Below, one piece after another: positions 3,522 through 61,401 of a stretch of 64,000 nt of DNA. A model generated the notes under the pieces. It was not told the DNA's origin and did no database searches. It was given only the letters and a program-made list of their open reading frames with translations. Each line of letters starts with the position of its first letter. The stretch's first letter is position 1. Made by a program: the position numbers and the translations under genes. The DNA is from Pedosphaera sp. (GTDB taxonomy: Bacteria; Verrucomicrobiota; Verrucomicrobiia; Limisphaerales; UBA9464): assembly GCA_009695205.1 (NCBI GenBank), contig SIBK01000016.1, positions 1 through 64,000 on the forward strand, written 5' to 3'.

Positions 3522-3544
3522 CAAAAAATCAGCGCTTTTCGCGC

Positions 3545-42436: not shown

Positions 42437-45055
42437 ATGCACCTGCGCGCCAACTTTGATCCTACGCCATCGCGCGAATTCTCTGCGCAAGTTCTCCCGG
42501 CGCCGGCACCGGTTGGGATCGGCCGGGGTCTTGTTGCCCTGCTGGTGGGAGCGTGGTTAGTCGGAGGGATGAGTCGCACGGAGGTCGCTGCGGGCGAATC
42601 GCCCCCTAATTCACGCCAGCCACCCGTCGCCCATTGGTCGTTCCAGCCCCTCCGATCGGCCAAGCCGCCGCCGGTGAAGAATGTCCGTTGGTCGAAGACC
42701 GCCCTGGACCCGTTCATACTCGCAAAGTTGGAGCAAAGCGGAATTGAGCCGGCACCGGAGGCGGACAAACGAACCCTCATTCGTCGCGCCACCTTTGACC
42801 TTATCGGGCTGCCACCGACCCCGGAGGAAGTGACTACCTTTCTCTCGGATACCGCTCCCGATGCTTTTCCACGGGTGGTCGATCGACTCTTGGAGTCACC
42901 CCATTATGGGGAGCGTTGGGGTCGGTACTGGCTGGATGTCGCGCGCTACGCGGACAATAAAGGCTACGTCTTTTTCGAAGAGAAGAGTTATCCTTGGGCC
43001 TGGGTCTATCGCGACTACGTGGTGCGCTCGTTCAACGAGGACAAACCCTTCCACCGGTTTGTGCTCGAGCAACTCGCGGCGGACCAACTCGATCTTGGGG
43101 GCGACTCTCGCACGCTCGCCGCGATGGGTTTTCTGACCGTGGGAGATCATTTTTCCAACAACATCCACGATATTTTGGACGACCGGATTGATGTCGTTTC
43201 CCGCGGCTTGCTCGGACTGACGGTTGGATGCGCGCGATGTCATGACCACAAGTTTGATCCAGTGACGACGGCGGATTACTACGCGCTCTACGGCGTATTT
43301 CGGAGTTCCAGTGAACCGTTGGTTCCGCCTATGATCGGCGAACCTGGGTTGAGCGAGACCTACGAAGGCTTCGATTTGGAATTGATCCAGCGCCAACGGA
43401 CGTTGCGTGATTTCGTTGAGAATAAGCACCGCGAAATTGTTCAAACCTCGCGCACGCGCATCGCGGATTCCCTGATGGCGGTTTATGCTCAGCGCAATCA
43501 GCCGGCCACCGAGAGTTTCATGCTCATCACCGATCCAGGCGACATCAACCCAGTGGTGATTTCGCGTTGGCGCACGCTTTTGGAGCAGGCTGGGGCGACG
43601 AACGGGATCTGGGCCCCGTGGAATGCATTCGCGGAGTTGAACGAGACGAATTTTACAGCGCTGTCGCCCGCCGCCAACACGTCGCTGCTCAAGGCCAATG
43701 GCCTCAATTCTCGCGTGCGGTCCGCCTTTTCAAATGCGCCGCCGGCTTCGATGAAAGACGTAGCCGAGCGTTACGCCTCCGTGCTGAGAGCCGTGGACAA
43801 ACAATCGCGTGAATCGCTCCCGCCCGCCGGCCTCAACTCTGGACCCGCCGTGCAACACCTTCCCGATGCGGACGACGATGACTTGCTACGGGTGCTTTAT
43901 GGTCCCGAGGCGCCCCCCGACGTGCCGGCACAGATGGACTGGGGTTTTCTTTCACTGCTGCCGGACCGGGCAAGTCAGGGCGAGTTCCAGAAGCTTCTGA
44001 AAGCCCTGGAGCAATGGCTCATGCATGGACCGGAGGCACCCGCGCGGGCGATGGTCTTGCGGGATCTGCCGGTGGCGTACGAGCCCCGCATTTTTCAACG
44101 AGGCAATCCAAGTCGCCTCGGAGCGTCCGTACCACGACGGTTTCTGCAACTGATCGAGCCGACGGGTCGGCCTTTTTCGCGAGGCAGCGGGCGGCTTGAA
44201 CTCGCGCAAGCCATCGTCGATCCGAAGAATCCACTCACGGCTCGCGTGCTGGTGAACCGGGTCTGGCTGCATCACTTTGGCGCCGGGCTCGTCACAACAC
44301 CGAGTGATTTGGGTCGGCGCAGCGATCCTCCATCGCATCCGGAACTTCTCGATTGGCTCGCGGATGAGTTCATTCGTAGCGGTTGGCGCGTGAAACATCT
44401 GCATCGACTAATCATGAACAGCGCCGTGTATCAACAAGCCTGTCAATCTCCCGTAGCCCAAAACCGATCGCCCATGGAACAGAAGGCGGCGACATTGAAC
44501 AACCAACACCCATCATCGAATACGAATCGTTCTCGACCCGCCGCCATGGATCCAGAGAATCGCCTTCTGTCACACATGAGCCGACGCCGACATGATTTCG
44601 AAACCCAACGCGACGCCATCCTGACCGTGGCCGGCCAGCTCGACCCGACGCCGGGCGGATCGCCCGTCGAGTACGCAACGCCGCGCCGGACTCTCTATAC
44701 CTTCGTCAATCGGATGGATGTGCCGCCGGTGAGGACAACATTCGACTTCCCGAGTCCGTCCGCAAGTTGTCCGCAGCGTTTGGAGACAACCGTTGCGCCG
44801 CAGGCGCTTTATTTGATGAACAATGAATTCGTCGCCGACTGCGCGGCGGCCGTCTTGCGCCGACCCGACGTGGCCGGGCTCCAATCGACGGCCGCAAAAA
44901 TTGATCGGCTCCATTCTCTCCTCTTCAGTCGTCCGCCGGCGAAATTGGAACAGGGCTCAGCTGAGAGATTTCTTGGCGATTCACCGAGCGAGAAGGCGTG
45001 GCAGCAGTACGCTCACGCGTTGATGATGGCCAATGAGTTTTCATTCGTAGACTGA
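42437..45055 (+). CDS. Secreted DUF1549/DUF1553 protein
   Basis: 872 residues from the ATG at 42437, preceded by AAGGA at ideal spacing. A signal-like segment (GRGLVALLVGAWLVGG) precedes the DUF1549 domain: ALDPFILAKLEQSGIEPAP, RATFDLIGLPPTPEEV, YGERWGRYWLDVARYADNKG and GCARCHDHKFDPVT, a CXXCH haem-type motif. The C-terminal DUF1553 domain has NPLTARVLVNRVWLHHFGAG, SDPPSHPELLDWLADEF and ends ANEFSFVD. The N-terminal cytochrome domain of the longest relatives is missing. Paired with DUF1501 in the usual order. The role is unknown; such pairs are thought to act in polysaccharide or sulfated-glycan use, which is not proven. Confidence 0.92.
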   Translation: MHLRANFDPTPSREFSAQVLPAPAPVGIGRGLVALLVGAWLVGGMSRTEVAAGESPPNSRQPPVAHWSFQPLRSAKPPPVKNVRWSKTALDPFILAKLEQSGIEPAPEADKRTLIRRATFDLIGLPPTPEEVTTFLSDTAPDAFPRVVDRLLESPHYGERWGRYWLDVARYADNKGYVFFEEKSYPWAWVYRDYVVRSFNEDKPFHRFVLEQLAADQLDLGGDSRTLAAMGFLTVGDHFSNNIHDILDDRIDVVSRGLLGLTVGCARCHDHKFDPVTTADYYALYGVFRSSSEPLVPPMIGEPGLSETYEGFDLELIQRQRTLRDFVENKHREIVQTSRTRIADSLMAVYAQRNQPATESFMLITDPGDINPVVISRWRTLLEQAGATNGIWAPWNAFAELNETNFTALSPAANTSLLKANGLNSRVRSAFSNAPPASMKDVAERYASVLRAVDKQSRESLPPAGLNSGPAVQHLPDADDDDLLRVLYGPEAPPDVPAQMDWGFLSLLPDRASQGEFQKLLKALEQWLMHGPEAPARAMVLRDLPVAYEPRIFQRGNPSRLGASVPRRFLQLIEPTGRPFSRGSGRLELAQAIVDPKNPLTARVLVNRVWLHHFGAGLVTTPSDLGRRSDPPSHPELLDWLADEFIRSGWRVKHLHRLIMNSAVYQQACQSPVAQNRSPMEQKAATLNNQHPSSNTNRSRPAAMDPENRLLSHMSRRRHDFETQRDAILTVAGQLDPTPGGSPVEYATPRRTLYTFVNRMDVPPVRTTFDFPSPSASCPQRLETTVAPQALYLMNNEFVADCAAAVLRRPDVAGLQSTAAKIDRLHSLLFSRPPAKLEQGSAERFLGDSPSEKAWQQYAHALMMANEFSFVD

Positions 45056-45065
45056 CGAATCGCCT

Positions 45066-46505
45066 ATGAATCCAATTGAACTCAACGCGAACCCGTTTCT
45101 CTCCCGCCGCCAAATGCTCGCTCGGTGCGGAACCGGCTTTGGGATGATGGCGCTGGCACCTTTACTCGACCAGGCGGGTTGGCTCGGCCTGCGCGCCGCT
45201 GCTTCCGAAACGGCGACATCGCTGCCGCAGGTGGCGCGCCCGCCTCATTTCACGCCCAAAGCGAAACATGTCGTCCACCTCTTCATGAACGGCGGGCCAT
45301 CGCAGGTGGATACCTTCGATCCCAAGCCGACCCTCGACCGCTACCACGGAAAGCCGCTTCCCCTGAACAATCTTCGGACCGAGCGCAAGACGGGCGCGGC
45401 GATGCGGTCGCCGTTCAAGTTTCAGCGCTACGGAAAGTCGGGACTTGAGATTAGCGAATTGTTTAGAAAGACGGCGAGTCTGCACGCCGACGACATGGCA
45501 ATTATCCGTTCGATGCGGGCGGAAGTCCCGAATCACGAGCCATCGCTGATGCTGATGAATTGCGGCGACTCGCGGCTGCCGCGGCCAAGCATGGGCTCAT
45601 GGATTAACTATGGTCTCGGCAGCGAGAACCAGAATCTGCCCGGCTTCATCGTGCTGTGCCCGGGCGGCTACCCGATTGTCTCGACACAGAATTGGCGGTC
45701 CGCCTTTCTGCCGGGTGCGTTTCAGGGGACGTACATCGACACGCAGCACACGGATGTCGAAAAGTTGATCGCCAACATTCGCAATAAGCGGATGACGATC
45801 GACGAGCAACGCCGCCAACTCGACTTGGTGCGCACGCTGAATGAAGACCACGCCGAGCAACGTTCCCACGACTCCCCGCTTGAAGCCCGCATTGCCACGT
45901 TTGAACTGGCTTACCGGATGCAGACGGAAGCAACCGATGCCTTCGACATAACCAGGGAACCGGAGGAGATTCGAAACGCTTACGGCAGCGGCACGCACGG
46001 GCGGCAATTGCTGATCACGCGCCGCCTGATTGAGCGGGGTGTGCGTTTCATCCAGGTTTGGTCTGGCGAAGGCCAGCCGTGGGACAACCACGAGAATCTC
46101 GAAAAAGGTCACCAGAAGCTCGCAGGGGAATGGGATCAGCCGATCGCTGCCTTCATGGCGGACCTGAAAGAGCGCGGGCTCTTCGACCAAACTCTTGTCC
46201 TGTGGAGTGGCGAGTTCGGCCGGACGCCGGTGGCCGAATTGCCCGCGCTGAACGGGCGGGACCACAATCACTATGGCTTCAGCGTATGGATGGCCGGCGG
46301 CGGCGTGAAAGGCGGCACGACTTACGGTGCGACCGACGAATTCGGCTTTCGAGCAACGGAAAGCCCGGTTCATGTCCATGATCTCCACGCGACCATTCTC
46401 CATTTGCTCGGACTGGACCATGAGAAGCTAACCTATCGCTACGCCGGGCGTGATTTTCGACTCACCGATGTGGCGGGAAATGTCGTGACCGGAATTCTGG
46501 CATGA
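45066..46505 (+). CDS. DUF1501 (sulfatase-like) protein, Tat-exported
   Basis: 479 residues, 10 bp after the DUF1549/1553 gene and therefore co-transcribed. The N-terminus FLSRRQMLARCGTGFGMMAL has a twin-arginine signal. The DUF1501 fold belongs to the alkaline phosphatase/sulfatase superfamily. Blocks: KHVVHLFMNGGPSQVDTFDP, MRAEVPNHEPSLMLMNCGD, RLIERGVRFIQVWSGEG, WDNHENLEKGHQK, LVLWSGEFGRTPVAE, and GRDHNHYGFSVWMAGGGVKG. Metal-binding Asp and His residues are present in these blocks. The substrate is unknown. Confidence 0.93.
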   Translation: MNPIELNANPFLSRRQMLARCGTGFGMMALAPLLDQAGWLGLRAAASETATSLPQVARPPHFTPKAKHVVHLFMNGGPSQVDTFDPKPTLDRYHGKPLPLNNLRTERKTGAAMRSPFKFQRYGKSGLEISELFRKTASLHADDMAIIRSMRAEVPNHEPSLMLMNCGDSRLPRPSMGSWINYGLGSENQNLPGFIVLCPGGYPIVSTQNWRSAFLPGAFQGTYIDTQHTDVEKLIANIRNKRMTIDEQRRQLDLVRTLNEDHAEQRSHDSPLEARIATFELAYRMQTEATDAFDITREPEEIRNAYGSGTHGRQLLITRRLIERGVRFIQVWSGEGQPWDNHENLEKGHQKLAGEWDQPIAAFMADLKERGLFDQTLVLWSGEFGRTPVAELPALNGRDHNHYGFSVWMAGGGVKGGTTYGATDEFGFRATESPVHVHDLHATILHLLGLDHEKLTYRYAGRDFRLTDVAGNVVTGILA

Positions 46506-46753: not shown

Positions 46754-49700
46754 ATGAGCCGCTTTTTGCACAACATCGCGTGGACCGCATGGATCGCCAG
46801 CATTGCCGCTGCCCGAATTTATGCGGAGGAAACGAATCTTTCCCTCCCGACAGCGCCAATCCCTATAGCCGCCGTCGCGTCGACATCCGCAACCACCCCC
46901 GTCGCGGCGGTGACAGCGTCGGCAACCACCCCCGTCGCGGCGGTGACAAACAGTGACAAAGCCCCGGAGATCCTGGTGACCGCACGCGCCGCGACGTCCA
47001 ATAACACGATCCGATTTCAGTTCGATGGGATACCTTACAGCGATGTCCTGGAACGATTCGCGCAAATGGCAAACAAGCCTCTTCTTGCTGCAACGAATGT
47101 CGCCGGCACCCTTACCTACAACGATCCGAATCCTTATTCCTACGTGGAGGCGTTGGATACCCTGAACCTGGTTCTTTCGATGAAAGGCCTGGCAATCGTG
47201 GAAACCGAACACAACCTGCGTCTCGTCCCGTTCAAGGAACTGCCTTCCCTTCCTCATCGCATCCTGCACGGCACCGATTCAACCGGGGATGTCCGTCCAG
47301 GTGAGGTTGTCACCGTCGTCCTGGAAGTGACCAATCTCGATGCAAAGGAGGTCGCTGATTCCGTCTCTCCGATGCTCTCAAGCGCCGGTTCCGCCGCTCC
47401 ACTTTCCCGCGGACGCGGACTCATTATCACGGACCGATTGACCAACATTCAACGGATCCGATCATTGCTCCGGACGATTGACATCGCCGCCATCGCAGAA
47501 CGGCAGATGAAAACGTACACGCTGACGCACGCTTCCGGAGGAATTGTCGCCGACCTGCTCAACCGGACCTTTGGCGCCGCCACCGCGCCGAAGCGGACCC
47601 AGTTCAATGCGAATAGCAAGGCCCTGGAGGTGCTTCCGGCCGATCCGAACGAATACATCACCGCAGTGTACGACGACGCTTCACGAACGCTCGTCCTGTT
47701 TGGCCCGTCCGACCGGCTGGCACTCGCCGAAGACCTGATCAATCGCTTCGAGCAAAAGGAAGGTTCCGCCGGCGACGTTCGCATCTACTACCCTCAATCT
47801 ATCAAGGCGGATGAGCTCGCTACGATTCTCCGCCAGGCAATCCCCGGAGTCGCCGGGGAAAAGGAACCCGCGGCAAGCGCCGTAATGAAAGCGCGCGTGA
47901 TCAGTGACCCAACGCAGAACCGACTGATCGTCGCTGCCCCCACCTCCGCCCAGTTGGAGGAAATTGAACAACTCGTAAACCGCGTCGACAAACCCGGCAG
48001 CGGTTCCAGCGTCACCAACCCTGGCCTCATACCGGTGCGGTCACAGACGATCCAACTGACTCGCATCTTCCGTCCTCGCACCACGGATGCAACGAACGTC
48101 GCTCACATCATCACTCAGGCTCTCACCCGCCGACAGCCGAACGGGCGAGTCATCATCACCGCCAGTGTGAGTCACGATGTCGGAAGCCAGAGCGTGATTG
48201 TCAGCGGTTCGCCGGACGACATCCAGACTGCGAGCGATATTGTCAGCCAACTCGAGACGGGCACCACGCAACCGACACCGCTCCAGACCCGCTTCCTAGA
48301 TGTCGGGACTCCAGGGGAAGCCCGTCGACTTCAGCCCCTGGTCGATCAGTTGTATCGGAACCAGGTGAGCGACGGAGGACTCGGTGTTGCCGCGCACGCG
48401 AAGATTCTGGCAGACACCGAATCCGGCCGATTGATCGTGACCGCCAGCGAGGAGCACCTCACTCGAATCGAGGCGCTAGTGAAGCAACTCCGGGCGAACA
48501 AACCCCTCACACAAGACCGCCATCTGCGCATCCTCACTCTGAAGAACGCCCGAGTTGATTCCGCAGTGCAAAACCTCCAGAACCTCCTGAAGGAGGCAAT
48601 GACCGCGCGCCAGTTTATCGGGGTGCCGACTCCGTCCGTCCTGCCGGACGCCCCGAATAATCGGCTGCTCGTGACGGCCACGGACGATCAATTGGAAGTC
48701 GTGGAAAGACTATTGGGTGTGATTGACGTCGCTCCTGCCGCCAATAGCGTGCGTGAATTCAGGGGAATCGAGTTATTCGGACGGACGGCGGCGGAATTTG
48801 CCCCCATCGTCCAGCAGCTTTACGCCGAGCAACTGCGTGGACAGCTGGAACCTTCCGGTGGACCGGCCTCAGTGATTCCAGATCCACGCAACAACCGCTT
48901 AATGGTGAGCGGCGCAGCGAGTGAAATCGCCCGGGTCGAATCCATCGTCCGTCAGCTCGATTCGACCGATCGCAAAGCCACAAAAGAGGAAACGCGAGTG
49001 CTGCGATTGCAGGCTGCCTCGGCGCCGGAACTCGTGGGTCTCATCGAGAAATCGCTGAACGCGCGCCAAGTGCAGGTACGGGTTCTGGTCGATGCCCGCA
49101 GCAATAGCCTCATTGTAACTGGGGACGCTTCAGCCGTGGAAGCCGCCGCTCAGATGGTGCAGCAGCTCGACACACAATCTGGCCTTTCTCCCCGGGAAAT
49201 CCGAATCCTGGAATTAAAAACAACCGACGCCGCCACACTCTCGCCCATGGTCAGCGGGTTGTTCGCCGATCAAGTCAAAGCGCAGCGAGGCGTGGAATAT
49301 AACTCCCCCACCAAGCTGGTTCCCGACGCCGTGGGCAATCGAATCATTGTCACAGGCATTCGTAGCGAAATCGATCAGGTCGCGAGCTTGGTGCAACGTC
49401 TCGATACCGTCCCCGATCAGGCCCAAGGCGCGCGTGTGTTCAAGCTCAACCTCGCCGACGCCATTACTCTGGCACCCGTCGTCTCCAATTCACTCGTCCG
49501 CTTCGGACCCCAGGGCCAGGCAATCCACCGGGCAACCGTTTCCGTGGATGAAAAATCTAATTCACTCGTCGTGTCCGGATCCCGGGCGGATTTGCAGGAT
49601 GCCGAATCCGTGATTGAAAAGCTCGACGGCTCCTCCGCTGCGAAGGAACGCGTCTTGCGAATCTTTGAAGTGAAATCCGATGCCGACGCTCTTGCCGCCC

Positions 49701-52700
49701 TGGCGATGCGAGTTTTCGCCGCACAAAACCCCGGACGGAATCCCACCTCACTTCTCAACCTCACACCCGAGCCGGGGAGTCATCGGATCATCGCCCTCGC
49801 ACCCGCTTCCATAATCGCCCAACTCGAAACCGTTCTCCGGTCACTGGATGAAGCCCCGGATCAGGCCGCCCGCGAGTTGCATCCGGTTGAGTTGAAAAAC
49901 GCCATCGCCTCGGAAGTGCTGCCCCGTCTCACTAAGATCTACGCCGATCAATCCCTGGGCAAGACTCTCAAGCCCGCCACCATCCAGGCGGACGCCTCCG
50001 GTTCGCGACTGCTCGTGTTCGGCACGACCGAACAGGCCGAGACCATCCGGCAGATCGCCCAAACCCTCGAGTCTCAGTCCCGACCCGCCCGCAACACTCG
50101 AGTTTTTGATGTCGGCCGCTTGACCGAAGCCCAACGAATCCTGCCGCTCGCTCAACAATTGTATAAGGATCAACTGGGCACTGATCCCCAAGCAGGTCCA
50201 CCCGATGCCCAGATGGTCTCCGACGGCCGTACGGGTCGGATCATCGTGTCGGCTCGGACGAATCAGCTCTCCCGCCTGGATGAGATTTTCTCACGGTTAC
50301 TGGAGAGTACGCCCACAAACACGGTCCGTGAAACCCGAGCTCTGGAGGTCGGCACTGCGGGGGACGTCCAACGACTACTGCCACTCGTTCAGAAGCTCTA
50401 CCAAGATCAATGGAAAGACCGGGGGGAATCGGATCCGGCCGATGCACAAATTCTTCCCGACCCCGCTGCCGGCCGTTTCCTAATCACCGGGAAACCGGCC
50501 CACCTGACATCCATCGAGTCCATCCTTCGTCAACTCGGTGCCAGCTCTGCTCGTTCTGGAGCACGCGAAACCCGCATCTATGACCTCTCCACAGCCAGTG
50601 CCCTCGAACTCGCAACAACCGTCCGCACTCTCTACATGGAGGAAGCAAAATCCCGCTTTGGCCCCGCCACTCCAGACACACTCATAACCCCTGACACGGG
50701 TGGCAACCGTTTGATCGTGGTAGGCGACACCAATGAACTCGCCTTGGTCGGTGATCTCATCCAGAAACTCGACAAGGTAGGCACCCAAAGCGCCAGCACA
50801 CGCGTCTTCAAACTCAAATCAGCCGATCCAGACAAGGTGATGGAAATTCTCGCCACAGCCCTTATTCGGTTCGACGCCTACGGCCGTCCCCAAAAACGCG
50901 TAAGCGTGGTAGCCGATTCCAAGACACGCACGCTAATCGCCACCGGGGACCCGAAGGAGTTGCAATCCGCGTCCGTCATCATCGAACAACTCGATACCTC
51001 GCTGGGTACTTCCGCCGGGCGCAGCATGCGCGTCCTCCAGGTCCCTCAGCGCAAACTCGGAGCGCTGGCCGTTCGTGTTCGTCAGGTTTTCCAGGACCAG
51101 ATTCGTAGCCAGCCCGAACTCGGTACCAGCGAGACGCTGATCCTCGAAGATATCCCCAGCAAACAGCTGATCCTGGCCGGCACTGAGAAGCAACTGGCGG
51201 CCATCGAAGAGATCGTCACCCTATTGCAGCGCGGCACGGATGACTCGGGTCGTGAGCTACGGGTTGTCTCGGTTGAAAAAACTTCCGCCGCTGCCGTCTC
51301 GAGTCTGTTGAGTCAAATCTTCGCAAAGCAAATCTCCAGCACGGACCCCGCGGAACGTCTCCTGCTAAGCGTCGGCACCGATGACCACAGACTGGTCATC
51401 GAGGCCCCCACCAATTCGTGGAGCAAGATCCTGCCGCTCGTTCAAACCCTCGACCAGGCCGACACCGCCGGCGACTCGGTCGTGCGTGCCGTTCATCTGA
51501 CCCGCGGACGAGCCGAAGATCTCGCAGAGGCGGTAAACAAATCGATGATTTCACGCAACGCACCCCTGAAGACAAAACAAGTTACCGTCACTCCGGTCAG
51601 TGGCGCAAATAGCCTGCTGATCAACGGCGCAAGCGAAGGCGTTGAGGAAGTTCTCAAGTTGATCCATGAATTGGATTCCAGCGGCAGCGGCAACGATGAA
51701 ATTGAGGTGCGCATCTTCAAACTAGAAAATGGCGCCGCAAAGGAAGTGTCCGCCATTCTGCAACAGCTCCTGCAGTCTGTCACCCGGTCTCGCTCCCGCA
51801 GCGGCGAGCGAATCGTCCCCGCCAGCCTCTCCGTCGACGATCGCTCCAACAGCCTTATCATCTCCGGATCGCCAGCTCATTTTAAGGTGATCGAAAAAAT
51901 CCTGCCAACCCTTGACCGCCTGCCGGAACGGAGTGATCGGGAGGTGCAGTTTGTCTGGTTGCGCAAGGCTCGTGCGTATGACGTCGTCAGCAAACTCGAG
52001 GCCGTGTTCACCAGTCGAGGCGAAGGCGAACGACCGGTCATCGAAGCCGATTCACTCAACAATTCGTTGACCATCATCGCGAAACGCGCCGACCTCGCCC
52101 AAATCCAGGACCTCATCAACCGCCTCGATGAACAGAGCAAAGACAGCAGCATCCAGGTCCGACTCCGCCCGCTCGACCGGGTCGCCGCTGAACAAATGGC
52201 GAAGATGCTGCAAAATCTTTATCCACAGATGTCCCGCGGCCAACTCCGCATCGTCGATCAATTGCCGCCTATAAAACCGGACTCCAACCGGATTCCGAAC
52301 GACGCGGCGACCAATGCCCCAGGGACCGCCGCGGCACCTACCAATACCCCCTCGCCCGTCCCTCAGCCGGAAACCACGAGCCCCGAAGTCGTGATCGCCG
52401 TCGACAAGAATGCCAACGCCCTGGTGCTGTCCGGACCTGCCCAAGAACTGGATAACATCGACCGGATCATCACCGACCTCACACACAACTTCTACGGTAG
52501 TGAAGCCGAGTTCCGTCTCTTCCCAATACGCGACGCCGACCCCGTCATCGTGGCACGCACGCTCATGGAATTGTTGAAGCAGGAACCGACAGCCGCGGGG
52601 GGGGCAGGACAGCCCCCTCGAGCCGCTAATTCGCAGCCGCGCATCACGGTTGTGGCTGAGCCCCGGAGCCGAACAGTCATTGCCCGCGGGCGGCCTACCG

Positions 52701-55700
52701 ACTTCGCATTCCTGGAATCACTGATCCGACAGCTCGACGCGGCAGGCGTCGCCTCTCAGCTCGAATTCCGGATAGTTCCCCTAACGAATGCTCCCCCGGA
52801 AAAAGTGCTTCCCCTGGTTCAACAGATGGTCACCCAGCTGAATCTTGCCCGCCCCGGCGAGCCACTCACCGTGGCCGCCGACTCGCGCTCACGTGGGCTG
52901 CTCGTCGTGGCCCGTGGCAATCTTCTCGCACAGGTCGAGAAAATGATTGTCTCGCTGGATCAGCCGACTCCCAACGTCGAAGTCCAGGTACAAATGGTCG
53001 CCCTCAAACAAGCCAACGCCACCCAGCTTGCAGCCATTCTGCAAACCATGCTCAAACCCGGCGCAGCCGGTGAACTCACCGCCGACGCCCGCGAATTGCA
53101 GGAGCAGATCCGACGATTAAAAATCCGGAGTGAAGATGGCCGGGAGGTGCTGCTCGACTTGTCGCACCCAATCAAGATCTCCGCAGATCCAGCCTCCACC
53201 CAGGGAGGGGGTAACCGGCTCATTCTCACGTCCACTCCGGATAATTTGAAAGCCCTCACTGCCGTGATTGAGGTCATGGATTCCACGCCTCTGGCTGAAG
53301 GCGTGTTCGTGAAATTCATCAAATTGCAACACGCCGACGCTGTCACTGTTGCACAGACGCTCAGTTCGATTTTCGCCCAAGGCCGGTTGCTCGGCGCCGG
53401 CCCCAATACCCCGAATGCGCGCCCGGAAGGCGAAACAGGAAAGAGCCTCGCCGGCCCGCTCAACGTGGCTCCCGATTCGCGAGCCAATACTCTCGTCCTC
53501 AGCGGACGAGCCGAAACCCTCGAACTCGCAGCCCGCCTGATCAATGACCTCGACCGGCCCGTCGATCGACTCGTTACCGAAGTCAAATTGTTCCGCCTAA
53601 AACATGCGTCCGCGACGCGCCTGCTCCCGCTCCTCCAAGCCGTGTTCGCGGAAGGAACACCGGTTCCCGGCGCCGAAGGATTGAATACTCAGGTCACCCG
53701 ACTCCGGACACTGCGTGAGAAACAGACGCCGAAAACCACGGAGGCACCCAAGAACCGCGCAGCACTGGTCCTGCAGGCCGATGATCTCTCCAACATTCTT
53801 ATCGTAGCGACACGAAGTGACACGCTGCCGCTAATCGAGGATGTTATCGAACAGCTCGATATCCCCGCCGCGTCCGGACTCGAATCGATCCGGGTCTACC
53901 CCCTCAATCATTCGGACCCGGCAATCGTGCAAAAGATTCTGAGCGATCTCACCAGCGGCCAAAAGTCCGCCAATCTGCGCAATGAGGACAGGCCTGTCAT
54001 CACAATCGATTCGCGAACCAGCGCCCTGGTCGTCGCGGGCAACGGGAAAAGTTTTGCGATGATTGAGGCACTGCTTCAACAACTGGATCAGCAGTTGCCG
54101 TTCAACCTTCGCGATATCCGCATCCTTCCACTCGAAAATGCCGACGCCAATGTGGTGGGTCCTACGCTCCAAAAACTCATGGACGCACGATTGACCCAAC
54201 GGGCGAGTCTGAATCCGGGACAGGCTGACGTGCTGAAGGTGATCATTCTCACGGACCCGCGCAGTAATTCACTGCTCATCGGCGGCTCGAAAGACGGTTT
54301 CGAAACGGTCGAATCGCTCGCCCGACAATTGGATCACGCTGGCCCCGCACTGAGCGGCCGACTTCGCCTGCTGCCCCTCCAATATGCAGACGCACACCTC
54401 ATCGCCAACACCTTGACAACGCTATTTGAACAACGGTACGCCGCAGGCCGCACGTCAGATGTTCAGCGAAACAAGCCTGTCATCTTGGCGGACCCGCGCA
54501 GCAACAGTCTCCTCATTACTGCAAACCAGGAGGACAACGGTGCCATCGACGATCTGCTCCGAAAACTCGACACCAAGATGGAGAACCCCGGACTGTTGCT
54601 GACGGTTGTCCCTTTGAAACACAACGACGCCGCGCGCGTTGCCACGCAGATCGAAAGTCTCTTCGCCGCACGACTCAAAGCGCAAGCCCTCCCCGGCCAG
54701 CCACCGTCGCCTTCCGAACAGATCAAGATTGAGCCCGACTCCCTCAACAACGCGCTCATCGTGTCGTCCAGCAAGGAGAACCTCGATCTAATCCGAGCGC
54801 TACTGGAAAAAATCGACGTGGAACCTCAGATTTCCGGTGGGCAATTACAATTGTTCAAACTCGAATTCGCCGATGCCCAGCGCGTCGCCACCCTGCTGAA
54901 GTCCCTCGTCAGTCAGGGGCTCTATCGGCCGGGCCACCTGCCCGGTGCGGCCAAGAGTGCGTCCCCTCAAGACGCCCTCGCCGTAAGCGTCGATCCACGA
55001 AGCAACACGCTCATCATTAGCGCCAGCCCCGAAAATATCGGCCTCGTAAAGGAGCTCATCAAACGCCTCGACAACCCGGACCTCGCCGCCAACGGCGACG
55101 TCCGGCTTTACCCTCTGAAAAACGCCAAAGCCGGGACTCTCGCCACCACCCTGGAGCAGTTTTTTCGAGCCAAGCGTACAGCCGATGCGGTGGCGGTAAA
55201 CGCGAATGAACGGACGCCTCCTGTCTCGGTCATTCCCGATGAACGGATGAATACCCTGCTGGTCACGGGCGGCAAAGAGGCGTTCGATCTCGCGGACCGC
55301 ATTATTGCTCAACTCGATGGCGACGGGGCATTCGCCCGTCTCAACTTTCGCGTCTTCCCACTCAAGAGGGCAACCGCCGCCAAACTGCAGTCCACCCTCC
55401 AACCCATTTTCGCCAACCGTCCGGCCAAGGCAAAAGGCGAACCCATAGATCCCATCACCCTTGTCGCGGATCGTTGGGTCAACGCCCTGCTTGTCGGCGC
55501 CTCGGTGGAAGACATGTCTACCGTCGCATCTCTCATTGAGCAACTCGACAGCGAGCCGAGTGACACCGGCCTCGCGATACATGTGTTCCCGCTCGCCAAA
55601 GCCGATGCCCGACGCGTGGCCCTAACCGTGCAAAGCCTTTTCCGCGACTCATCTCCAAACCAAGTCGCTCCGGTCTCGGTCTCCGCAGACGAGCGGATCA

Positions 55701-57574
55701 ACGCCATTGTCGTCTCCTGCGGAGAGACCGACGCGAAACGAATTGATGATCTTGTCCGCAAACTCGATACCGAACAGGTGGCGCGCGTCAGCGAAATCCG
55801 AGTGTTCCCACTCCAGTATGCTCGAGCCGAATCACTCTCCACCATTCTCAATACCGCTCTCAATACCAAGCCCCCAGCATTGACCGAACAAAGCCCGAAT
55901 GCCCAATCGGTCCTTCAGTTCATCAGCCATGTTCCCGGCGGTCGAGAATTCGTCAGCGCCGCCCTCAAAGAGGCCGTCCTTATCACCTCAGACGCCCGGA
56001 TGAATTCTCTCATTGTATCCGGACCGGTGGATTACATGGGCCTCATCGAGCAGATTATCACTCGACTCGACGCCAGTTCGCCTCAGGAGGCCAAAATCAA
56101 AGTGTTCACGCTGGTGAATGCCGATGCGCGTCAGATGGCGGAATTGCTCACTCAGCTGTTCAAGATGTCCGCGACCGCGTCCTCAACCTCGCCCCGATCG
56201 GTTCAATATACTCTCGTTCGCCCAGCCACCGGGCCCGACGGCTCAACGGTCGAAGAATCGATGGCCTCTGCCACACTCGGCACCGCCGAACAAAGTGCCC
56301 TTACCGTGACCATCGATCCCCGAACCAATAGTCTGCTCATCGGTGGCACCGAGCACTATGTCCTGCTCGTGTCGCAGATCATCGAATCCCTGGACGCCAG
56401 CCCGGCGAACGAACGAAAAACTGAAGTTATCCGCCTGAAAAACTCTGTGGCTCTCGATGTTGCCGCTGCAATTCGCACGTTCCTTGACCAGGAACGGATG
56501 CGCGTCTCTCAAGTGCTCGGCACCGCCGCCATCGGCACAACTCAGAGACTCCTCGACCATGAAATCGCTGTCGTCGCCGAACAGGCCAGCAACACGTTGC
56601 TCGTCTCTGCGAATCCCCGGTACTTCGAACAAATCCGCATTCTAATTGACGAACTCGACACAGCTCAACCTCAGGTTCAAATCCAAGTGCTCCTCGCGGA
56701 GGTCACACTCGACGCTTCCACGGCATTAGGCATCGAATGGACCCAGACCGGAAGGAAGGGGGACGTCAATCTCAAAACCGGAACAGATTTCGGCGTCGCT
56801 CAGCAACTCAAAAACTTCGGCGGCTACTCAACCGCCGTCACCGGCTCCGACTTCACTTTTCTGCTCCGCGCCCTCAAGGACGAGGGCCGCCTCGAAGTCC
56901 TCAGCCGACCGCAAATCGTCACGGCCGACAACAAACCCGCCTCCATCAACATCGGCCAGCGCGTGCCGCTGATCACCGACAGCCGCGTCACCGAACGCGG
57001 TGACACGATTAACTCGTTCCGTTATGAAGATATCGGAGTCAACCTTACCGTCACCCCAAAGATAAGCCCCGACGGTTTCGTCAAAATGGAAATCGGAACC
57101 ACCAATTCTTCCCTCAGCAGCTCAAACATCGAAATTAATAAGTCCGCCTCAGTCCCCATTATCAATCAACGCAAGGCCAACACCACCGTCAGCGTCCAAA
57201 GCGGACAGACGGTCGTCATTGGAGGCCTCATAGGAACCGTCGAAGATCGCCGGATCAAGAAGACGCCCGTGCTCGGCACCATCCCCGTCATCGGCGCCCT
57301 CTTCCGCAGTACCCACACGTCCCGGAATCGCAAGGAACTTCTCATCCTGCTGACTCCCCAGATCCTGACCCAGGCCCGCACAACCCATCCGCTGATCCGC
57401 AGCATCGAAAACGTCACCCGGGAACAACTGGATCAGTCTCAGATAAAGGACGAATTCAAGCGGGATAAGCTCCAGAAGAGGATCCTCGACCCGTTGTATC
57501 CAAATTCCGGAAAAGAGCCGACCGAACCCGAAAAAAATCGCCGCCCTCTCGGCCGGGATGGGGTCGGAATCTAA
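46754..57574 (+). CDS. Giant secretin with about 38 N-domain repeats
   Basis: 3,606 residues (roughly 390 kDa) in one uninterrupted frame. Signal peptide about 1-24; Ala/Thr/Pro linker 35-68 with a duplicated SATTPVAAVT; N0/STN-like domain about 84-160 (IRFQFDGIPYSDVLERFAQM). From about 180 to 3303 there are about 38 units of about 82 residues, each with an opening strand-helix (such as VRIFKLENGAAKEVSAIL), a D.RSNSLIISG core, and a helix ending in LIxQLD; this is the secretin N1/NolW module. Residues 3304-3606 are a complete secretin pore domain (VQIQVLLAEVTLDASTALGI, LSRPQIVTADNKPASINIGQ, VVIGGLIGTVEDRRIKKTPV, LGTIPVIGALFRS, LLILLTPQIL). Ordinary secretins have 1-4 N modules in 400-800 residues. 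It probably forms an outer-membrane multimer. Cys is almost absent (one noticed, in VVSCGET). Confidence 0.9.
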   Translation: MSRFLHNIAWTAWIASIAAARIYAEETNLSLPTAPIPIAAVASTSATTPVAAVTASATTPVAAVTNSDKAPEILVTARAATSNNTIRFQFDGIPYSDVLERFAQMANKPLLAATNVAGTLTYNDPNPYSYVEALDTLNLVLSMKGLAIVETEHNLRLVPFKELPSLPHRILHGTDSTGDVRPGEVVTVVLEVTNLDAKEVADSVSPMLSSAGSAAPLSRGRGLIITDRLTNIQRIRSLLRTIDIAAIAERQMKTYTLTHASGGIVADLLNRTFGAATAPKRTQFNANSKALEVLPADPNEYITAVYDDASRTLVLFGPSDRLALAEDLINRFEQKEGSAGDVRIYYPQSIKADELATILRQAIPGVAGEKEPAASAVMKARVISDPTQNRLIVAAPTSAQLEEIEQLVNRVDKPGSGSSVTNPGLIPVRSQTIQLTRIFRPRTTDATNVAHIITQALTRRQPNGRVIITASVSHDVGSQSVIVSGSPDDIQTASDIVSQLETGTTQPTPLQTRFLDVGTPGEARRLQPLVDQLYRNQVSDGGLGVAAHAKILADTESGRLIVTASEEHLTRIEALVKQLRANKPLTQDRHLRILTLKNARVDSAVQNLQNLLKEAMTARQFIGVPTPSVLPDAPNNRLLVTATDDQLEVVERLLGVIDVAPAANSVREFRGIELFGRTAAEFAPIVQQLYAEQLRGQLEPSGGPASVIPDPRNNRLMVSGAASEIARVESIVRQLDSTDRKATKEETRVLRLQAASAPELVGLIEKSLNARQVQVRVLVDARSNSLIVTGDASAVEAAAQMVQQLDTQSGLSPREIRILELKTTDAATLSPMVSGLFADQVKAQRGVEYNSPTKLVPDAVGNRIIVTGIRSEIDQVASLVQRLDTVPDQAQGARVFKLNLADAITLAPVVSNSLVRFGPQGQAIHRATVSVDEKSNSLVVSGSRADLQDAESVIEKLDGSSAAKERVLRIFEVKSDADALAALAMRVFAAQNPGRNPTSLLNLTPEPGSHRIIALAPASIIAQLETVLRSLDEAPDQAARELHPVELKNAIASEVLPRLTKIYADQSLGKTLKPATIQADASGSRLLVFGTTEQAETIRQIAQTLESQSRPARNTRVFDVGRLTEAQRILPLAQQLYKDQLGTDPQAGPPDAQMVSDGRTGRIIVSARTNQLSRLDEIFSRLLESTPTNTVRETRALEVGTAGDVQRLLPLVQKLYQDQWKDRGESDPADAQILPDPAAGRFLITGKPAHLTSIESILRQLGASSARSGARETRIYDLSTASALELATTVRTLYMEEAKSRFGPATPDTLITPDTGGNRLIVVGDTNELALVGDLIQKLDKVGTQSASTRVFKLKSADPDKVMEILATALIRFDAYGRPQKRVSVVADSKTRTLIATGDPKELQSASVIIEQLDTSLGTSAGRSMRVLQVPQRKLGALAVRVRQVFQDQIRSQPELGTSETLILEDIPSKQLILAGTEKQLAAIEEIVTLLQRGTDDSGRELRVVSVEKTSAAAVSSLLSQIFAKQISSTDPAERLLLSVGTDDHRLVIEAPTNSWSKILPLVQTLDQADTAGDSVVRAVHLTRGRAEDLAEAVNKSMISRNAPLKTKQVTVTPVSGANSLLINGASEGVEEVLKLIHELDSSGSGNDEIEVRIFKLENGAAKEVSAILQQLLQSVTRSRSRSGERIVPASLSVDDRSNSLIISGSPAHFKVIEKILPTLDRLPERSDREVQFVWLRKARAYDVVSKLEAVFTSRGEGERPVIEADSLNNSLTIIAKRADLAQIQDLINRLDEQSKDSSIQVRLRPLDRVAAEQMAKMLQNLYPQMSRGQLRIVDQLPPIKPDSNRIPNDAATNAPGTAAAPTNTPSPVPQPETTSPEVVIAVDKNANALVLSGPAQELDNIDRIITDLTHNFYGSEAEFRLFPIRDADPVIVARTLMELLKQEPTAAGGAGQPPRAANSQPRITVVAEPRSRTVIARGRPTDFAFLESLIRQLDAAGVASQLEFRIVPLTNAPPEKVLPLVQQMVTQLNLARPGEPLTVAADSRSRGLLVVARGNLLAQVEKMIVSLDQPTPNVEVQVQMVALKQANATQLAAILQTMLKPGAAGELTADARELQEQIRRLKIRSEDGREVLLDLSHPIKISADPASTQGGGNRLILTSTPDNLKALTAVIEVMDSTPLAEGVFVKFIKLQHADAVTVAQTLSSIFAQGRLLGAGPNTPNARPEGETGKSLAGPLNVAPDSRANTLVLSGRAETLELAARLINDLDRPVDRLVTEVKLFRLKHASATRLLPLLQAVFAEGTPVPGAEGLNTQVTRLRTLREKQTPKTTEAPKNRAALVLQADDLSNILIVATRSDTLPLIEDVIEQLDIPAASGLESIRVYPLNHSDPAIVQKILSDLTSGQKSANLRNEDRPVITIDSRTSALVVAGNGKSFAMIEALLQQLDQQLPFNLRDIRILPLENADANVVGPTLQKLMDARLTQRASLNPGQADVLKVIILTDPRSNSLLIGGSKDGFETVESLARQLDHAGPALSGRLRLLPLQYADAHLIANTLTTLFEQRYAAGRTSDVQRNKPVILADPRSNSLLITANQEDNGAIDDLLRKLDTKMENPGLLLTVVPLKHNDAARVATQIESLFAARLKAQALPGQPPSPSEQIKIEPDSLNNALIVSSSKENLDLIRALLEKIDVEPQISGGQLQLFKLEFADAQRVATLLKSLVSQGLYRPGHLPGAAKSASPQDALAVSVDPRSNTLIISASPENIGLVKELIKRLDNPDLAANGDVRLYPLKNAKAGTLATTLEQFFRAKRTADAVAVNANERTPPVSVIPDERMNTLLVTGGKEAFDLADRIIAQLDGDGAFARLNFRVFPLKRATAAKLQSTLQPIFANRPAKAKGEPIDPITLVADRWVNALLVGASVEDMSTVASLIEQLDSEPSDTGLAIHVFPLAKADARRVALTVQSLFRDSSPNQVAPVSVSADERINAIVVSCGETDAKRIDDLVRKLDTEQVARVSEIRVFPLQYARAESLSTILNTALNTKPPALTEQSPNAQSVLQFISHVPGGREFVSAALKEAVLITSDARMNSLIVSGPVDYMGLIEQIITRLDASSPQEAKIKVFTLVNADARQMAELLTQLFKMSATASSTSPRSVQYTLVRPATGPDGSTVEESMASATLGTAEQSALTVTIDPRTNSLLIGGTEHYVLLVSQIIESLDASPANERKTEVIRLKNSVALDVAAAIRTFLDQERMRVSQVLGTAAIGTTQRLLDHEIAVVAEQASNTLLVSANPRYFEQIRILIDELDTAQPQVQIQVLLAEVTLDASTALGIEWTQTGRKGDVNLKTGTDFGVAQQLKNFGGYSTAVTGSDFTFLLRALKDEGRLEVLSRPQIVTADNKPASINIGQRVPLITDSRVTERGDTINSFRYEDIGVNLTVTPKISPDGFVKMEIGTTNSSLSSSNIEINKSASVPIINQRKANTTVSVQSGQTVVIGGLIGTVEDRRIKKTPVLGTIPVIGALFRSTHTSRNRKELLILLTPQILTQARTTHPLIRSIENVTREQLDQSQIKDEFKRDKLQKRILDPLYPNSGKEPTEPEKNRRPLGRDGVGI
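46889..46948 (+). repeat. Tandem 33-bp direct repeat in the secretin linker
   Basis: Two identical 27-bp copies (46889-46915 and 46922-46948) spaced 33 bp apart, i.e. 11 codons, encoding SATTPVAAVT twice. In-frame, so copy number can change without breaking the gene. It lies in the linker between the signal peptide and the N0 domain. Confidence 0.9.
47291..56662 (+). repeat. Protein-level array of about 38 secretin N-domain units
   Basis: The 9.4-kb stretch codes for about 38 consecutive N1-like modules averaging 82 residues (3,124 residues in total). The DNA copies are clearly divergent, so it is an old expansion rather than a fresh tandem duplication. Each module is marked by its core: for example DARSNSLIVTG, DDRSNSLIISG, DPRSNSLLIGG, DPRSNTLIISA, DERMNTLLVTG, DPRTNSLLIGG. 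Some modules carry insertions: a Pro/Thr/Asn-rich loop of about 50 residues near the middle (52260-52390), an extra charged helix near 53080-53170, and longer loops in the last three modules. Confidence 0.85.
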
Positions 57575-57588
57575 CCCGGGGGTATCGA

Positions 57589-58254
57589 TTGATTCGCTCA
57601 TCATTCACGGAAGTGATCGCTTCAATTTTCACATATTTGATAAACCCAAGATCTCGACCCGACAGCGCTTTATGTCGGAATGTGGATACCGTTGAGGGGA
57701 CGTCGCTACGCCATCGTCCACGCCGGGAGTTCCTGATTCGGACAGCCACGGCAGGCAAACTGGCGCTGCTATGGATCGGGCTTTCCACCTTTCTGTCGGC
57801 GGGTTGCACGACGAGCGGGCACCCGGCCTCACCTTCGGCACTCCGCTCAACGTCTCGTCCCGACGAACTTCACCTGTTCGGAATGCCCCTGGCCCTCAAT
57901 CTGGACGACGTGCCGGGTCTGGATGGTTTTGCGGTCCGTGTATTCTATAGCCGTAGCACCCGCGCACACGGGATTCCAATCACTTCAGGAACGCTGGAAA
58001 TACTGATGTTTGACGGCGCTCCAGTCGGCACAACGGCGGCCTTCCCTGTGCCCCTCCGCATCTGGCCTTTCACCGCAGAACAACTAAAACAGTTTTCAAC
58101 CCGCACGTCGCTCGGAGTGGGCTACCAGCTAGTCCTCTGTTGGGGCGACAGCCAACCCACGGGGGATCACCTGACGGTCGTCGCCCGATATCGTCCATCA
58201 ACGGGCCCTGCCCTTCTCTCCCCGCCGAGCAGCATTTCCACCGGGATGAACTAA
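57589..58254 (+). CDS. Tat-type lipoprotein of unknown function
   Basis: Up to 221 residues from a TTG at 57589; a GTG at 57682 would give 190 and is as plausible. The signal has a twin-arginine motif (RPRREFLIRTA), a hydrophobic core and the lipobox FLSAGC followed by Thr-Thr, which predicts export folded and lipid anchoring, by default to the outer membrane. The mature part (about 145 residues) is beta-rich: DELHLFGMPLALNLDDVPGL, AVRVFYSRSTRAHGIPITSG, TLEILMFDGAPVGTT. I do not recognise a family. It follows the giant secretin by about 15-110 bp. Secretins commonly need a small lipoprotein (pilotin) for outer-membrane targeting, so a pilotin-like role is possible, but this is inference. Confidence 0.7.
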   Translation: MIRSSFTEVIASIFTYLINPRSRPDSALCRNVDTVEGTSLRHRPRREFLIRTATAGKLALLWIGLSTFLSAGCTTSGHPASPSALRSTSRPDELHLFGMPLALNLDDVPGLDGFAVRVFYSRSTRAHGIPITSGTLEILMFDGAPVGTTAAFPVPLRIWPFTAEQLKQFSTRTSLGVGYQLVLCWGDSQPTGDHLTVVARYRPSTGPALLSPPSSISTGMN

Positions 58255-58419: not shown

Positions 58420-59358
58420 ATGTTCGTCTCTGCCACCCGTCGTCAACGCCGAGTGAACCTGCTCGTCTTGGCGCTGTTGCTCGGATTTGCCGCAGGTTGC
58501 GATTTCCTGAATCGCCCCGGCCCAAGCGAGGAAACGGATCCGCATTATCTCGACGGAATGACGGCCAAAAAGCTTTACGATTGGGATGCTGCGATCGCCC
58601 ATTTCGAGAATGCACTCCACGCGAATCCCAATTCCGGCGCCGCCCACCGGGAACTGGGTTTCCTTTTCGACGAAAAACGGACCAATTTCATCCGGGCGCT
58701 CTACCATTACGAACGATTTAAGGAGTTGCACGTCACAGATACCAATCGCCTCGTCGCGGACCGCGTCTTCTATTGTCGTGTCAAACTGGCCAGCGAATAC
58801 GCGACCTACCTGGATCGCATGCAAAATCAGACGGAGATTGACCGCTGGCGGGCGGCCGTCGGGCAGCGCGATCAGGAAATTGCCAGGCGGGAGCAGGAAA
58901 TTGCCAACCTGCGCAGCTGGATCACTCAGATTTCACGCCTCACGAACCAAGTCATCGCCTCTTCCTCCGGCCTGATGATCACGGCGGTCACGGGTCCCGA
59001 GGTGAGCAATTCCCCACTCGTCCTCCCAGCACGCAATCAGCTAACTCCGGCGACGTCTCCGCCGGGAGGCACGAACTCATCGGCCGCTCCACGCTCTCCG
59101 GAGAGCACTCCGCAAGGCGCCTCAACGCCATTGAAACCGGCGCCGATCGCCGAACGCCTCCGGAAACAGGGATTCCCGCCCAAATCCACGCCTCCTGTGG
59201 CCTCGAAACGACAGCACACGATCCGGTCCGGCGATACTCTTGTCCGAATTGCGAAGCAGTACGGGGTGAGCCTTTCACGTCTTCAAGCTGCAAATCCACA
59301 TCTTGATCCTCGCCAGCTAAAAGTCGGAAAACTGGTGGTAATTCCAGATTCTTATTAA
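58420..59358 (+). CDS. Lipoprotein with TPR, coiled coil and LysM domain
   Basis: 312 residues; GGAG lies just before the ATG. Lipobox LLLGFAAGC with lipidated Cys27 followed by Asp28, a residue that in E. coli keeps lipoproteins in the inner membrane. TPR-like repeats (DWDAAIAHFENALHANPNSG and RALYHYERFKELHV, about 50-105) precede a coiled coil (QRDQEIARREQEIANLRSWI, about 150-190). After a Pro/Ser/Thr linker, a LysM peptidoglycan-binding module (HTIRSGDTLVRIAKQYGVSL through KVGKLVVIP) forms the C-terminus. It could tether the inner membrane to peptidoglycan around the secretin complex, in the manner of FimV/TsaP-like LysM partners of secretins; that is inference. Confidence 0.85.
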   Translation: MFVSATRRQRRVNLLVLALLLGFAAGCDFLNRPGPSEETDPHYLDGMTAKKLYDWDAAIAHFENALHANPNSGAAHRELGFLFDEKRTNFIRALYHYERFKELHVTDTNRLVADRVFYCRVKLASEYATYLDRMQNQTEIDRWRAAVGQRDQEIARREQEIANLRSWITQISRLTNQVIASSSGLMITAVTGPEVSNSPLVLPARNQLTPATSPPGGTNSSAAPRSPESTPQGASTPLKPAPIAERLRKQGFPPKSTPPVASKRQHTIRSGDTLVRIAKQYGVSLSRLQAANPHLDPRQLKVGKLVVIPDSY

Positions 59359-59406
59359 TGGCTGGGAGTCGCTTCCGGGTTATCCTTTGCGAAGTCTGCC
59401 CACTCG

Positions 59407-60216
59407 ATGCCGATGAGTCTTAATGTATCAACAATACCGACTTCAGATTCGACGGACGATTCGACTCCGCGACGCTACGTGCTGCAAGACAGGTTGACGC
59501 AGTACTCTCTACCCAACTCCCATCACGATCCGCTCCGTAAGGTCACCTGGACAAACACGCTCTGCGCCTGCGTCCTTGCGGCAGGGTTGCTCGGAGTTCA
59601 AAAGCCGGTGCAGGTTTTGATGCACCGGACGAGCGAGGAACCCACTCTGATTCCGATTGAGGAGATTCAGCCCACGCCACCACCGACACGCCAGGCGTTT
59701 CAGCCGGCGGAACAATCGCCAACCGACGATTCCGACACGCAACCTCCGGAGCCTCCGCCGGTCGCCCCTTCCGTTGCACCCATAACCGCCAATTCGAATT
59801 TTGTGATTCCCGTGGAAGGCCCGGTCAATATCGTCAAAGAAATCTTGAACGCGGCTCCCCCACCTCGGAATCCCACGCCGGCCAACGCGGTCGTGGGTTC
59901 CCCCAAGGCCGCTCCACCGGCGAGGCCGTCGGGGCTGGCGAAGTTCAACAGTGGCAGTTTCAAGGGTGATTTTCCTGACATGGAGTTCGATGATTTTTCC
60001 AAGGAATTTCGAAGCCGCAACCGCGGAAAAGCACTTTCGGCCCGGATTCAGTGGAATCTCACTCCGGAGGGAATGGTCACGAATTTTGTTGTCCTAAAGG
60101 CTTCCGGGACGCCCGAGTTCGAGCGTGAAGTCATTCGCTGGATGAAACGAAAGTACCGATTTGACCCGCCCGGCCAACCCTTCATCCTCTTCCAAGATAT
60201 CGAGCAATCGGACTAG
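59407..60216 (+). CDS. TonB-like energy transducer
   Basis: 269 residues. A cytoplasmic N-terminus of about 48 residues, one membrane anchor (about 49-66, NTLCACVLAAGLLGV), a Pro-rich periplasmic spacer (about 85-190, IQPTPPPTRQAFQPAEQ, PPEPPPVAPSVAPI) and a C-terminal TonB_C-type domain (ALSARIQWNLTPEGMVTNFV, FEREVIRWMKRKYRFDP). TonB proteins carry proton-motive energy from ExbB/ExbD to outer-membrane channels. The unusually long cytoplasmic head differs from E. coli TonB. Followed directly by exbB and exbD. An ATG at 59413 is an alternative start. Confidence 0.82.
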   Translation: MPMSLNVSTIPTSDSTDDSTPRRYVLQDRLTQYSLPNSHHDPLRKVTWTNTLCACVLAAGLLGVQKPVQVLMHRTSEEPTLIPIEEIQPTPPPTRQAFQPAEQSPTDDSDTQPPEPPPVAPSVAPITANSNFVIPVEGPVNIVKEILNAAPPPRNPTPANAVVGSPKAAPPARPSGLAKFNSGSFKGDFPDMEFDDFSKEFRSRNRGKALSARIQWNLTPEGMVTNFVVLKASGTPEFEREVIRWMKRKYRFDPPGQPFILFQDIEQSD

Positions 60217-60261
60217 TCCGAAAGTCCACAATTCTCCCCTCTTTCAGCACCACTCCCTCTC

Positions 60262-60927
60262 ATGTTCGCAAACATACTGGTCAAATTCTTCGAAAGAGGC
60301 GGCCCGATCATGTGGCCGATTCTCGTCGTGGCTCTCATTGCGGTCGCCGTCGTGGGCGAACGCGTTTTCTGGTGGGTCCGGGAAAGTCGGAAGCGGGATC
60401 CGTCCCGGTTGGAAGGGGTTTTTGCTGCGTTGGAGAATGGCGATTTTGCCGCTGCAACCCGCGATTCCAAAGACTCCGAGGACCCCATCCTCCGCATGAT
60501 CTGGCATGGATTAAACCACGTGAACTCGTCCCTACGCGGGGCACTAACCGTCGCCGCTGGCGGTGAAATCAAGCGAGCCGGCCGATTTTTGGTCCTGATG
60601 GATACCTGTATCACCGTCGCGCCGCTGCTCGGTTTGTTGGGCACCGTCACGGGCATCATGGGTGCCTTCGGATCGATCGGTAAAAATGAATTCGGCGTCG
60701 AGACCGTTTCCGGAAGTATTGGCGAAGCGTTGATCGCCACCGCCTGTGGCTTGGGCATCGCCATTTTCTGTCTCCTGCCGTTTAACTACCTCAACGAACG
60801 GCTGACAAAACTCCAATTCGATCTCGAAACGGCTGCAACCAATGTCGAGGTGTTGGTCGACAAGGCGAAGGCCCACGGTGCAGACACCATGGAATTCCGC
60901 CGTGAGCGAGGCACTCAGAATCAGTAG
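60262..60927 (+). CDS. exbB: MotA/TolQ/ExbB proton channel protein
   Basis: 221 residues. Three membrane segments: about 10-32 (PIMWPILVVALIAVAVVGER), about 112-135 (CITVAPLLGLLGTVTGIMGA) and about 152-175 (IGEALIATACGLGIAIFCLL). The conserved ExbB block from VAPLLGLLGTVTGIM through GSIGEALIATACGLGIA is intact. It forms the pentameric stator with ExbD in the inner membrane. TolQ is an alternative name for the same fold; the TonB-like gene next door favours ExbB. Confidence 0.93.
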   Translation: MFANILVKFFERGGPIMWPILVVALIAVAVVGERVFWWVRESRKRDPSRLEGVFAALENGDFAAATRDSKDSEDPILRMIWHGLNHVNSSLRGALTVAAGGEIKRAGRFLVLMDTCITVAPLLGLLGTVTGIMGAFGSIGKNEFGVETVSGSIGEALIATACGLGIAIFCLLPFNYLNERLTKLQFDLETAATNVEVLVDKAKAHGADTMEFRRERGTQNQ

Positions 60928-60987
60928 GCGACCCCAGCCTCGTCACACCGGGGCCGCCAATGATTTCAGGATTTATTCGGCTTTGCC

Positions 60988-61401
60988 ATGCACTTCAATT
61001 CACCCCTACCCCGCAAGAAGGCCCGCATCGAAATCATCCCCCTGATCGATGTCATGTTTTTCCTGCTCGCCGCCTTCATGATGGTCAGCCTCACCCTCCA
61101 GAAAGCCCAGACGATCAAAATGAACCTTCCGACGGCGGTCGCTGCTCAGAAAGATTTTAAGCCCGAGATTTTCAACATTGGCGTCGACAAACTCGGCGAC
61201 CTCTACGTGGGCAAGGAACGCATACTGTTGGCGGACATGCGGGGTATGCTGACAAACCGACTGGCAGGCAATACCAACCTCGCGGTCTACATCACCGGCG
61301 ACAAACTGGCGACGCATGGGCGCGTAATCGAGGTGCTGGACCTAGTCCACCGGTCGGGTGTGCAGAAAGTGTCCTTCGCCATAGAACCCGTAAATGAATA
61401 A
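60988..61401 (+). CDS. exbD: ExbD/TolR biopolymer transport protein
   Basis: 137 residues. One membrane helix at about 12-35 (IEIIPLIDVMFFLLAAFMMV) with the proton-carrying Asp in PLIDVMF, then a periplasmic domain (LGDLYVGKERILLADMRGML, ending DLVHRSGVQKVSFAIEP). Partner of the ExbB protein 60 bp upstream. The basic cytoplasmic start (LPRKKARIEI) is typical. Confidence 0.94.
   Translation: MHFNSPLPRKKARIEIIPLIDVMFFLLAAFMMVSLTLQKAQTIKMNLPTAVAAQKDFKPEIFNIGVDKLGDLYVGKERILLADMRGMLTNRLAGNTNLAVYITGDKLATHGRVIEVLDLVHRSGVQKVSFAIEPVNE

Follow-up and report, generated by a model that had tools for sequence, protein, structure and literature searches.

What is the purpose of a gate subunit that carries ring modules enough for about 100 nm? 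The window, a stretch of 64,000 nucleotides of DNA from Pedosphaera sp., raises this question because it contains a secretin frame of 3606 aa with 38 N-domain modules. In the type II secretion system (T2SS), known GspD secretins consist of about 15 subunits, each with an N0 and three N1-type domains; the N0 is located at the inner-membrane platform, the pore is in the outer membrane, and the machine normally spans a few tens of nanometers. N-domain rings are few in secretins whose structures have been described, and the six of Thermus PilQ were called unusual (PMC5745081). Our literature searches found no prior description of such a giant secretin; most subscription journals and preprints were outside their coverage, and novelty is unproven.

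Domains of the giant secretin

The features of the locus are as follows.

46754..57574 (+): giant GspD-type secretin, 3606 aa, about 389 kDa
46754..46828 (+): N-terminal signal peptide MSRFLHNIAWTAWIASIAAARIYAEE, judged by eye, cleavage site uncomputed
47042..47215 (+): N0 domain, GspD type, residues 97-154 (Pfam and N0-N1 profile)
47321..56659 (+): 38 secretin N1-type modules, array of residues 190-3302 (Pfam, repeat profile, AlphaFold, Foldseek)
50360..52480 (+): variable zone, about modules 14-22, in which whole modules are gained or lost among orthologues, some of them as two- or four-module blocks
56870..57367 (+): secretin pore domain, residues 3373-3538 (Pfam)
57589..58254 (+): small lipoprotein with a conserved lipobox Cys (codon 57805-57807); its true start is uncertain and likely near 57700

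The giant frame begins with ATG and has no internal stops. The original prediction, made from the sequence alone, of one intact secretin frame with a signal peptide and an N0 was borne out, and both Pfam and an N0-N1 profile place the N0 in the GspD type. The Pfam model type_II_gspD_N0 scored 26.7 bits against a cut-off of 27 (E = 5.1e-6) and matched 20 of 22 orthologues at E ≤ 0.01; the best match of the N0-N1 profile was the solved N0-N1 of GspD (5wq7, E = 7.8e-13). Secretin_N matched 37 stretches in Pfam (E = 0), and a profile built from the giant's own repeats found 38 modules, 37 of them at i-E < 1e-3. Their mean start-to-start spacing was 82.05 aa, in agreement with the predicted array of about 38 modules averaging 82 residues. 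A full pore domain had been placed at residues 3304-3606. The pore is indeed complete, but the single Pfam Secretin domain (E = 2.4e-49) is bounded at 3373-3538, and residues 3304-3372 precede it. KH-domain Pfam matches in the array are look-alikes of the N1 fold. AMIN domains, which are present in many PilQ, were absent from the giant in the Pfam scan. Rfam and tRNA scans of the 64-kb window were empty.

AlphaFold modeling of five modules with 51 aligned sequences gave a beta-alpha-beta-beta-alpha fold five times, at moderate confidence (pLDDT 72.6, pTM 0.54). The top solved matches of this block in Foldseek were secretins, mostly GspD. The first was the Deinococcus secretin DR_0774 (8co1), a type IV piliation protein by name, with a solved chain of 740 aa and far fewer modules than the giant. 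Pfam Secretin_N, AlphaFold, and Foldseek thus agree on the N-domain fold that had been proposed for the modules. The five-module monomer reproduced none of the known stacks and had low TM-scores to them.

Relationship to type II secretion

A profile of the giant's pore matched GspD first among solved structures (5wq7, E = 1.5e-54; 6hcg, E = 7.1e-54), ahead of PilQ (E = 4e-36) and the type III secretion secretins (E = 2e-21), and the best solved relatives of the pore domain were all GspD. The profile of the modules also had GspD as its best match (N1-N3 of 5wq7, E = 9.6e-18). The NCBIfam model TIGR02517 gave 1104 bits (cut-off 351), a score summed over 19 stretches and inflated by the repeats.

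A GspM-like gene lies directly upstream of the giant in 16 of 19 relatives' loci with untruncated frames, and the upstream order in relatives is GspG-H-I-J-K-L-M, often preceded by GspE-F. The relatives' GspG scores above the NCBIfam equivalog cut-off (100.6 versus 88.85 bits). For GspE and GspF the T2SS model is the best match, with scores under the cut-off (609.9 versus 630 and 324 versus 424, respectively). GspH, J, and K are pseudopilin-like and GspL is PilM/PilN-like; GspI and GspM had no Pfam matches and were named from position and sequence character. The C-terminal half of the GspM-like protein appears by eye to be GspC/PilP-like, and it had no match in a PDB profile search. In six genomes of one family of the order (G035, G094, G126, G166, G216, and G274), the match to GspM is divided within a longer frame (538-552 aa), and the protein seems to bear an insertion of ~190 residues.

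Other arrangements also occur. L103 has a complete set after the giant, running lipoprotein, E, F, G, H, I, J, K, L, M; in L115 most of such a set is present with it; and in L043, from another family, the lipoprotein, GspE, and GspF lie downstream. In Phycisphaerae, GspF, G, K, and L are upstream of the giant, as are I and J in some. Downstream of the giant and the small lipoprotein, three Phycisphaerae loci (L128, L131, and L138) encode a PstS-like protein and Pst-type permeases. Neither in the window nor in its two congeners does the giant adjoin the T2SS genes. The window's genome has the set distributed over three contigs, with GspG-M on C5, GspE-F on C115 (74% and 72% identical to those of the family), and the giant and lipoprotein in the window. 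Upstream of the giant in the window (42389-46505) are PSCyt2/PSD1 (DUF1549/DUF1553) and DUF1501 genes.

Co-occurrence was counted from lists over one common set of 293 genomes of the order. The giant was present in 87 of these; the lipoprotein was found in 86 of the 87 and GspM in 83. Genomes of the set that had no giant match included 5 with the lipoprotein and 10 with GspM. The lipoprotein is the only window neighbor tested that adjoins the giant in relatives (19 of 20 loci), and it is a candidate pilotin or secretin cap. It had no matches among Pfam and PDB sequences or known pilotins; its predicted structure is a beta sandwich (pLDDT 81), for which Foldseek returned generic immunoglobulin folds only and no specific match. 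A pilotin lipoprotein is not universal in T2SSs.

Like GspD (PulD, XcpQ, EpsD; TIGR02517), the giant has an N0, N1-type modules, a pore, linkage to GspE-M, and a neighboring lipoprotein. It differs in having about 38 N1-type modules where GspD has 3 and a mass of about 389 kDa against about 70 kDa, and in that its lipoprotein belongs to no known family. Module number (38 versus three, N1-N3) is a size character that does not define the family, and so we take the giant to be a variant of T2SS GspD. Because its pore, N0, and modules are homologous to those of GspD and its gene is linked to T2SS genes, the giant is almost certainly the GspD of a T2SS.

The original prediction had instead offered a giant pore, a fiber-bearing crater, or a macromolecule-uptake channel. 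These found no support: gene order and co-occurrence over two phyla indicate a T2SS GspD, and the operon and the distribution fit neither a crater nor an uptake reading. That the giant is a PilQ-like secretin of a type IV pilus-like or fiber-extruding machine, e.g., for the fibers of crateriform structures, is favored by the PilM/PilN-like GspL, and other planctomycetes do have crateriform structures with 12-nm pili-like fibers (PMC5394234). However, the GspG equivalog, the pseudopilins resembling GspH, J, and K, a pore nearer to GspD than to PilQ, and the presence of the giant in 7 of 294 sampled Planctomycetota genomes make such a machine very unlikely.

On the same strand after the giant in the window (58420-61401) lie genes for a TPR/LysM lipoprotein, TonB, ExbB, and an ExbD-like protein, which are absent beside the giant in relatives. 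The TonB_C, ExbB, and ExbD-like genes (59407-61401) would suit a TonB-coupled channel for the uptake of macromolecules, but they adjoin the giant in none of 20 relatives' loci, whereas T2SS genes do. We rejected TonB/ExbBD coupling, these genes being adjacent to the giant in the window only, and give an uptake channel next to no credence.

In a sample of 388 genomes of the phylum, the giant was found in the window's own genome alone (E ≤ 1e-75). Among sampled Verrucomicrobiota, only part of one order carries it. This restriction, together with the 7 of 294 Planctomycetota genomes, means that the giant is not a general feature of the superphylum, with no demonstrated link to crateriform structures, which are known from other planctomycetes (PMC5394234). 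The Planctomycetota giants (4,217-5,073 aa) are clearly separate from ordinary secretins (at most 1,341 aa). Where giant records are named, they come from Pedosphaera or Limisphaerales-type Verrucomicrobia and from Phycisphaerae. Five public records of metagenome-assembled genomes with the verrucomicrobial giant locus (L067, L070, L079, L080, and L082) bear the titles Akkermansia muciniphila, Klebsiella pneumoniae, or Proteobacteria, and these titles look wrong. In a pore-domain tree with four ordinary secretins, the giants formed a single group (support 90/91); the tree is not decisive, two of the four being on very long branches.

Conservation of the module array

Intact giant frames of 3,600-5,155 aa occur in many independent genomes, and most genomes of the window's family have one secretin frame of 3,600-4,500 aa. 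The longest giant frame seen in the order is 5,155 aa (G073:C60). A survey of module number in related genomes had been proposed. In nineteen relatives whose frames are untruncated, the count is 40-47, compared to 38 in the window's giant, and in a wider set that includes Phycisphaerae (frames of 2,381-4,979 aa) it is about 20-52. Module number differs even among close relatives of one family (38, 40, about 43, and about 47). Within the family, a module nearly always finds its best match in a relative at the corresponding position; the register shifts after modules 15-18, where relatives carry additional modules.

Identity between modules inside the giant reaches at most about 46%, whereas orthologous modules within the genus are 76-97% identical, which rules out a recent amplification of the whole array. 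Recent block duplications are confined to the middle zone of some relatives: blocks of four modules in L051, L054, and L047 (up to 98% identity) and a block of two in L056 (93-98%). The four-module duplications possibly reflect rapid change in length. The array between N0 and pore grew from the usual three N1-type domains to 38 via duplication.

Comparing the giant to a congener's gene gave a dN/dS of 0.09 (dS 0.88, dN 0.078), with values of 0.007 to 0.22 for single modules. Every module is under purifying selection, and thus the whole array is maintained by selection. The independent intact orthologues, the colinearity of the modules, and the dN/dS values dispose of an assembly artefact, which had been named as what would refute the prediction, and of a pseudogene.

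Arrangement of the modules

In the giant, N0 and pore are kept at opposite ends, so that the chain must still connect the platform with the outer membrane. The N0-N2 rings of XcpQ measure 80 Å for three domains (PMC5646246), or about 2.7 nm each, giving about 100 nm for 38 modules. With a module count far above that of known secretins, the paradox of stacked length raised in the original prediction is genuine. A stack of about 100 nm is deeper than an ordinary periplasm.

The mechanism that we infer, including the oligomer, its coaxial stacking and length, the pilotin role, and the secretion of exoproteins, would be as follows. About 15 giant subunits, which together would amount to about 5.8 MDa (computed), would stack their modules as coaxial rings and build a tunnel through the periplasm, about 100 nm in length (38 modules × about 2.7 nm). 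The N0 would be seated on the inner-membrane platform (GspL/M), to which a possible GspC-like domain in the C-terminal half of the GspM-like protein may also belong. The C-terminal barrel would lie in the outer membrane, aided by the downstream lipoprotein. A pseudopilus (GspG-K, powered by GspE) would drive exoproteins outward through the giant.

Stacking is favored by the one-to-one colinearity of the modules, the constant inter-module linkers (11-13 aa in the C-terminal part of the array), the gain and loss of whole modules, and a precedent. Thermus thermophilus PilQ, which like the giant has an extended array of beta-alpha-beta-beta-alpha N domains, shows that ring number can match periplasm width, its complex with six stacked rings being 350 Å long and described as spanning most of a wide periplasm (PMC5745081). 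This PilQ differs in serving a type IV pilus and DNA uptake and in having six rings (N0-N5), versus N0 plus about 38 modules in the giant. In planctomycetes the periplasm can be greatly enlarged (PMC5394234); the host order here is verrucomicrobial.

The same genomes also have ordinary secretins, with frames mostly of 500-1,200 aa, some of which adjoin other GspE-F-G genes. Two genomes with a giant T2SS (L221 and L222) possess another GspE-F-G-K set, whose secretin is of ordinary size. Since the ordinary secretins indicate that few rings can cross the envelope, we hold stacking with caution. It could be that only a few modules by the N0 and the pore of the T2SS GspD form rings, giving a complex of ordinary length, while the middle modules fold back, splay, or form a flexible periplasmic cage, e.g., one that binds peptidoglycan or holds large substrates. 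That arrangement would agree with the ordinary periplasm depth and the ordinary-sized secretins, with the concentration of module gain and loss in the middle zone, and with the AlphaFold model, which gives no confident arrangement between modules. However, the middle modules are kept one-to-one in the family under purifying selection like that of the ends, they retain the N-domain core, and the Pfam scan found no extra binding domain in the array. We regard the few-ring arrangement as a serious possibility whose chance is below even. Coaxial stacking of most modules is somewhat more probable than not, and for the whole statement, a T2SS GspD with most of its modules stacked coaxially into a ~100-nm conduit, the balance is slightly in favor.

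More tentatively, and with a chance a little short of even, the family may build T2SS tunnels of about 100-140 nm from 38-52 stacked rings, ring number being the length setting for envelope depth. If true, this would be by far the longest secretin, used where inner and outer membranes lie far apart. Because module number varies among close relatives, ring count versus envelope depth is directly testable. A roughly tenfold-expanded GspD is common to some environmental Verrucomicrobia and Planctomycetes. This conserved family of about 20-52 modules, tied to T2SSs in two phyla of the PVC superphylum, lends itself to asking whether the machine's reach is set by the number of N-rings, and how T2SSs operate where the periplasm may be enlarged or variable.
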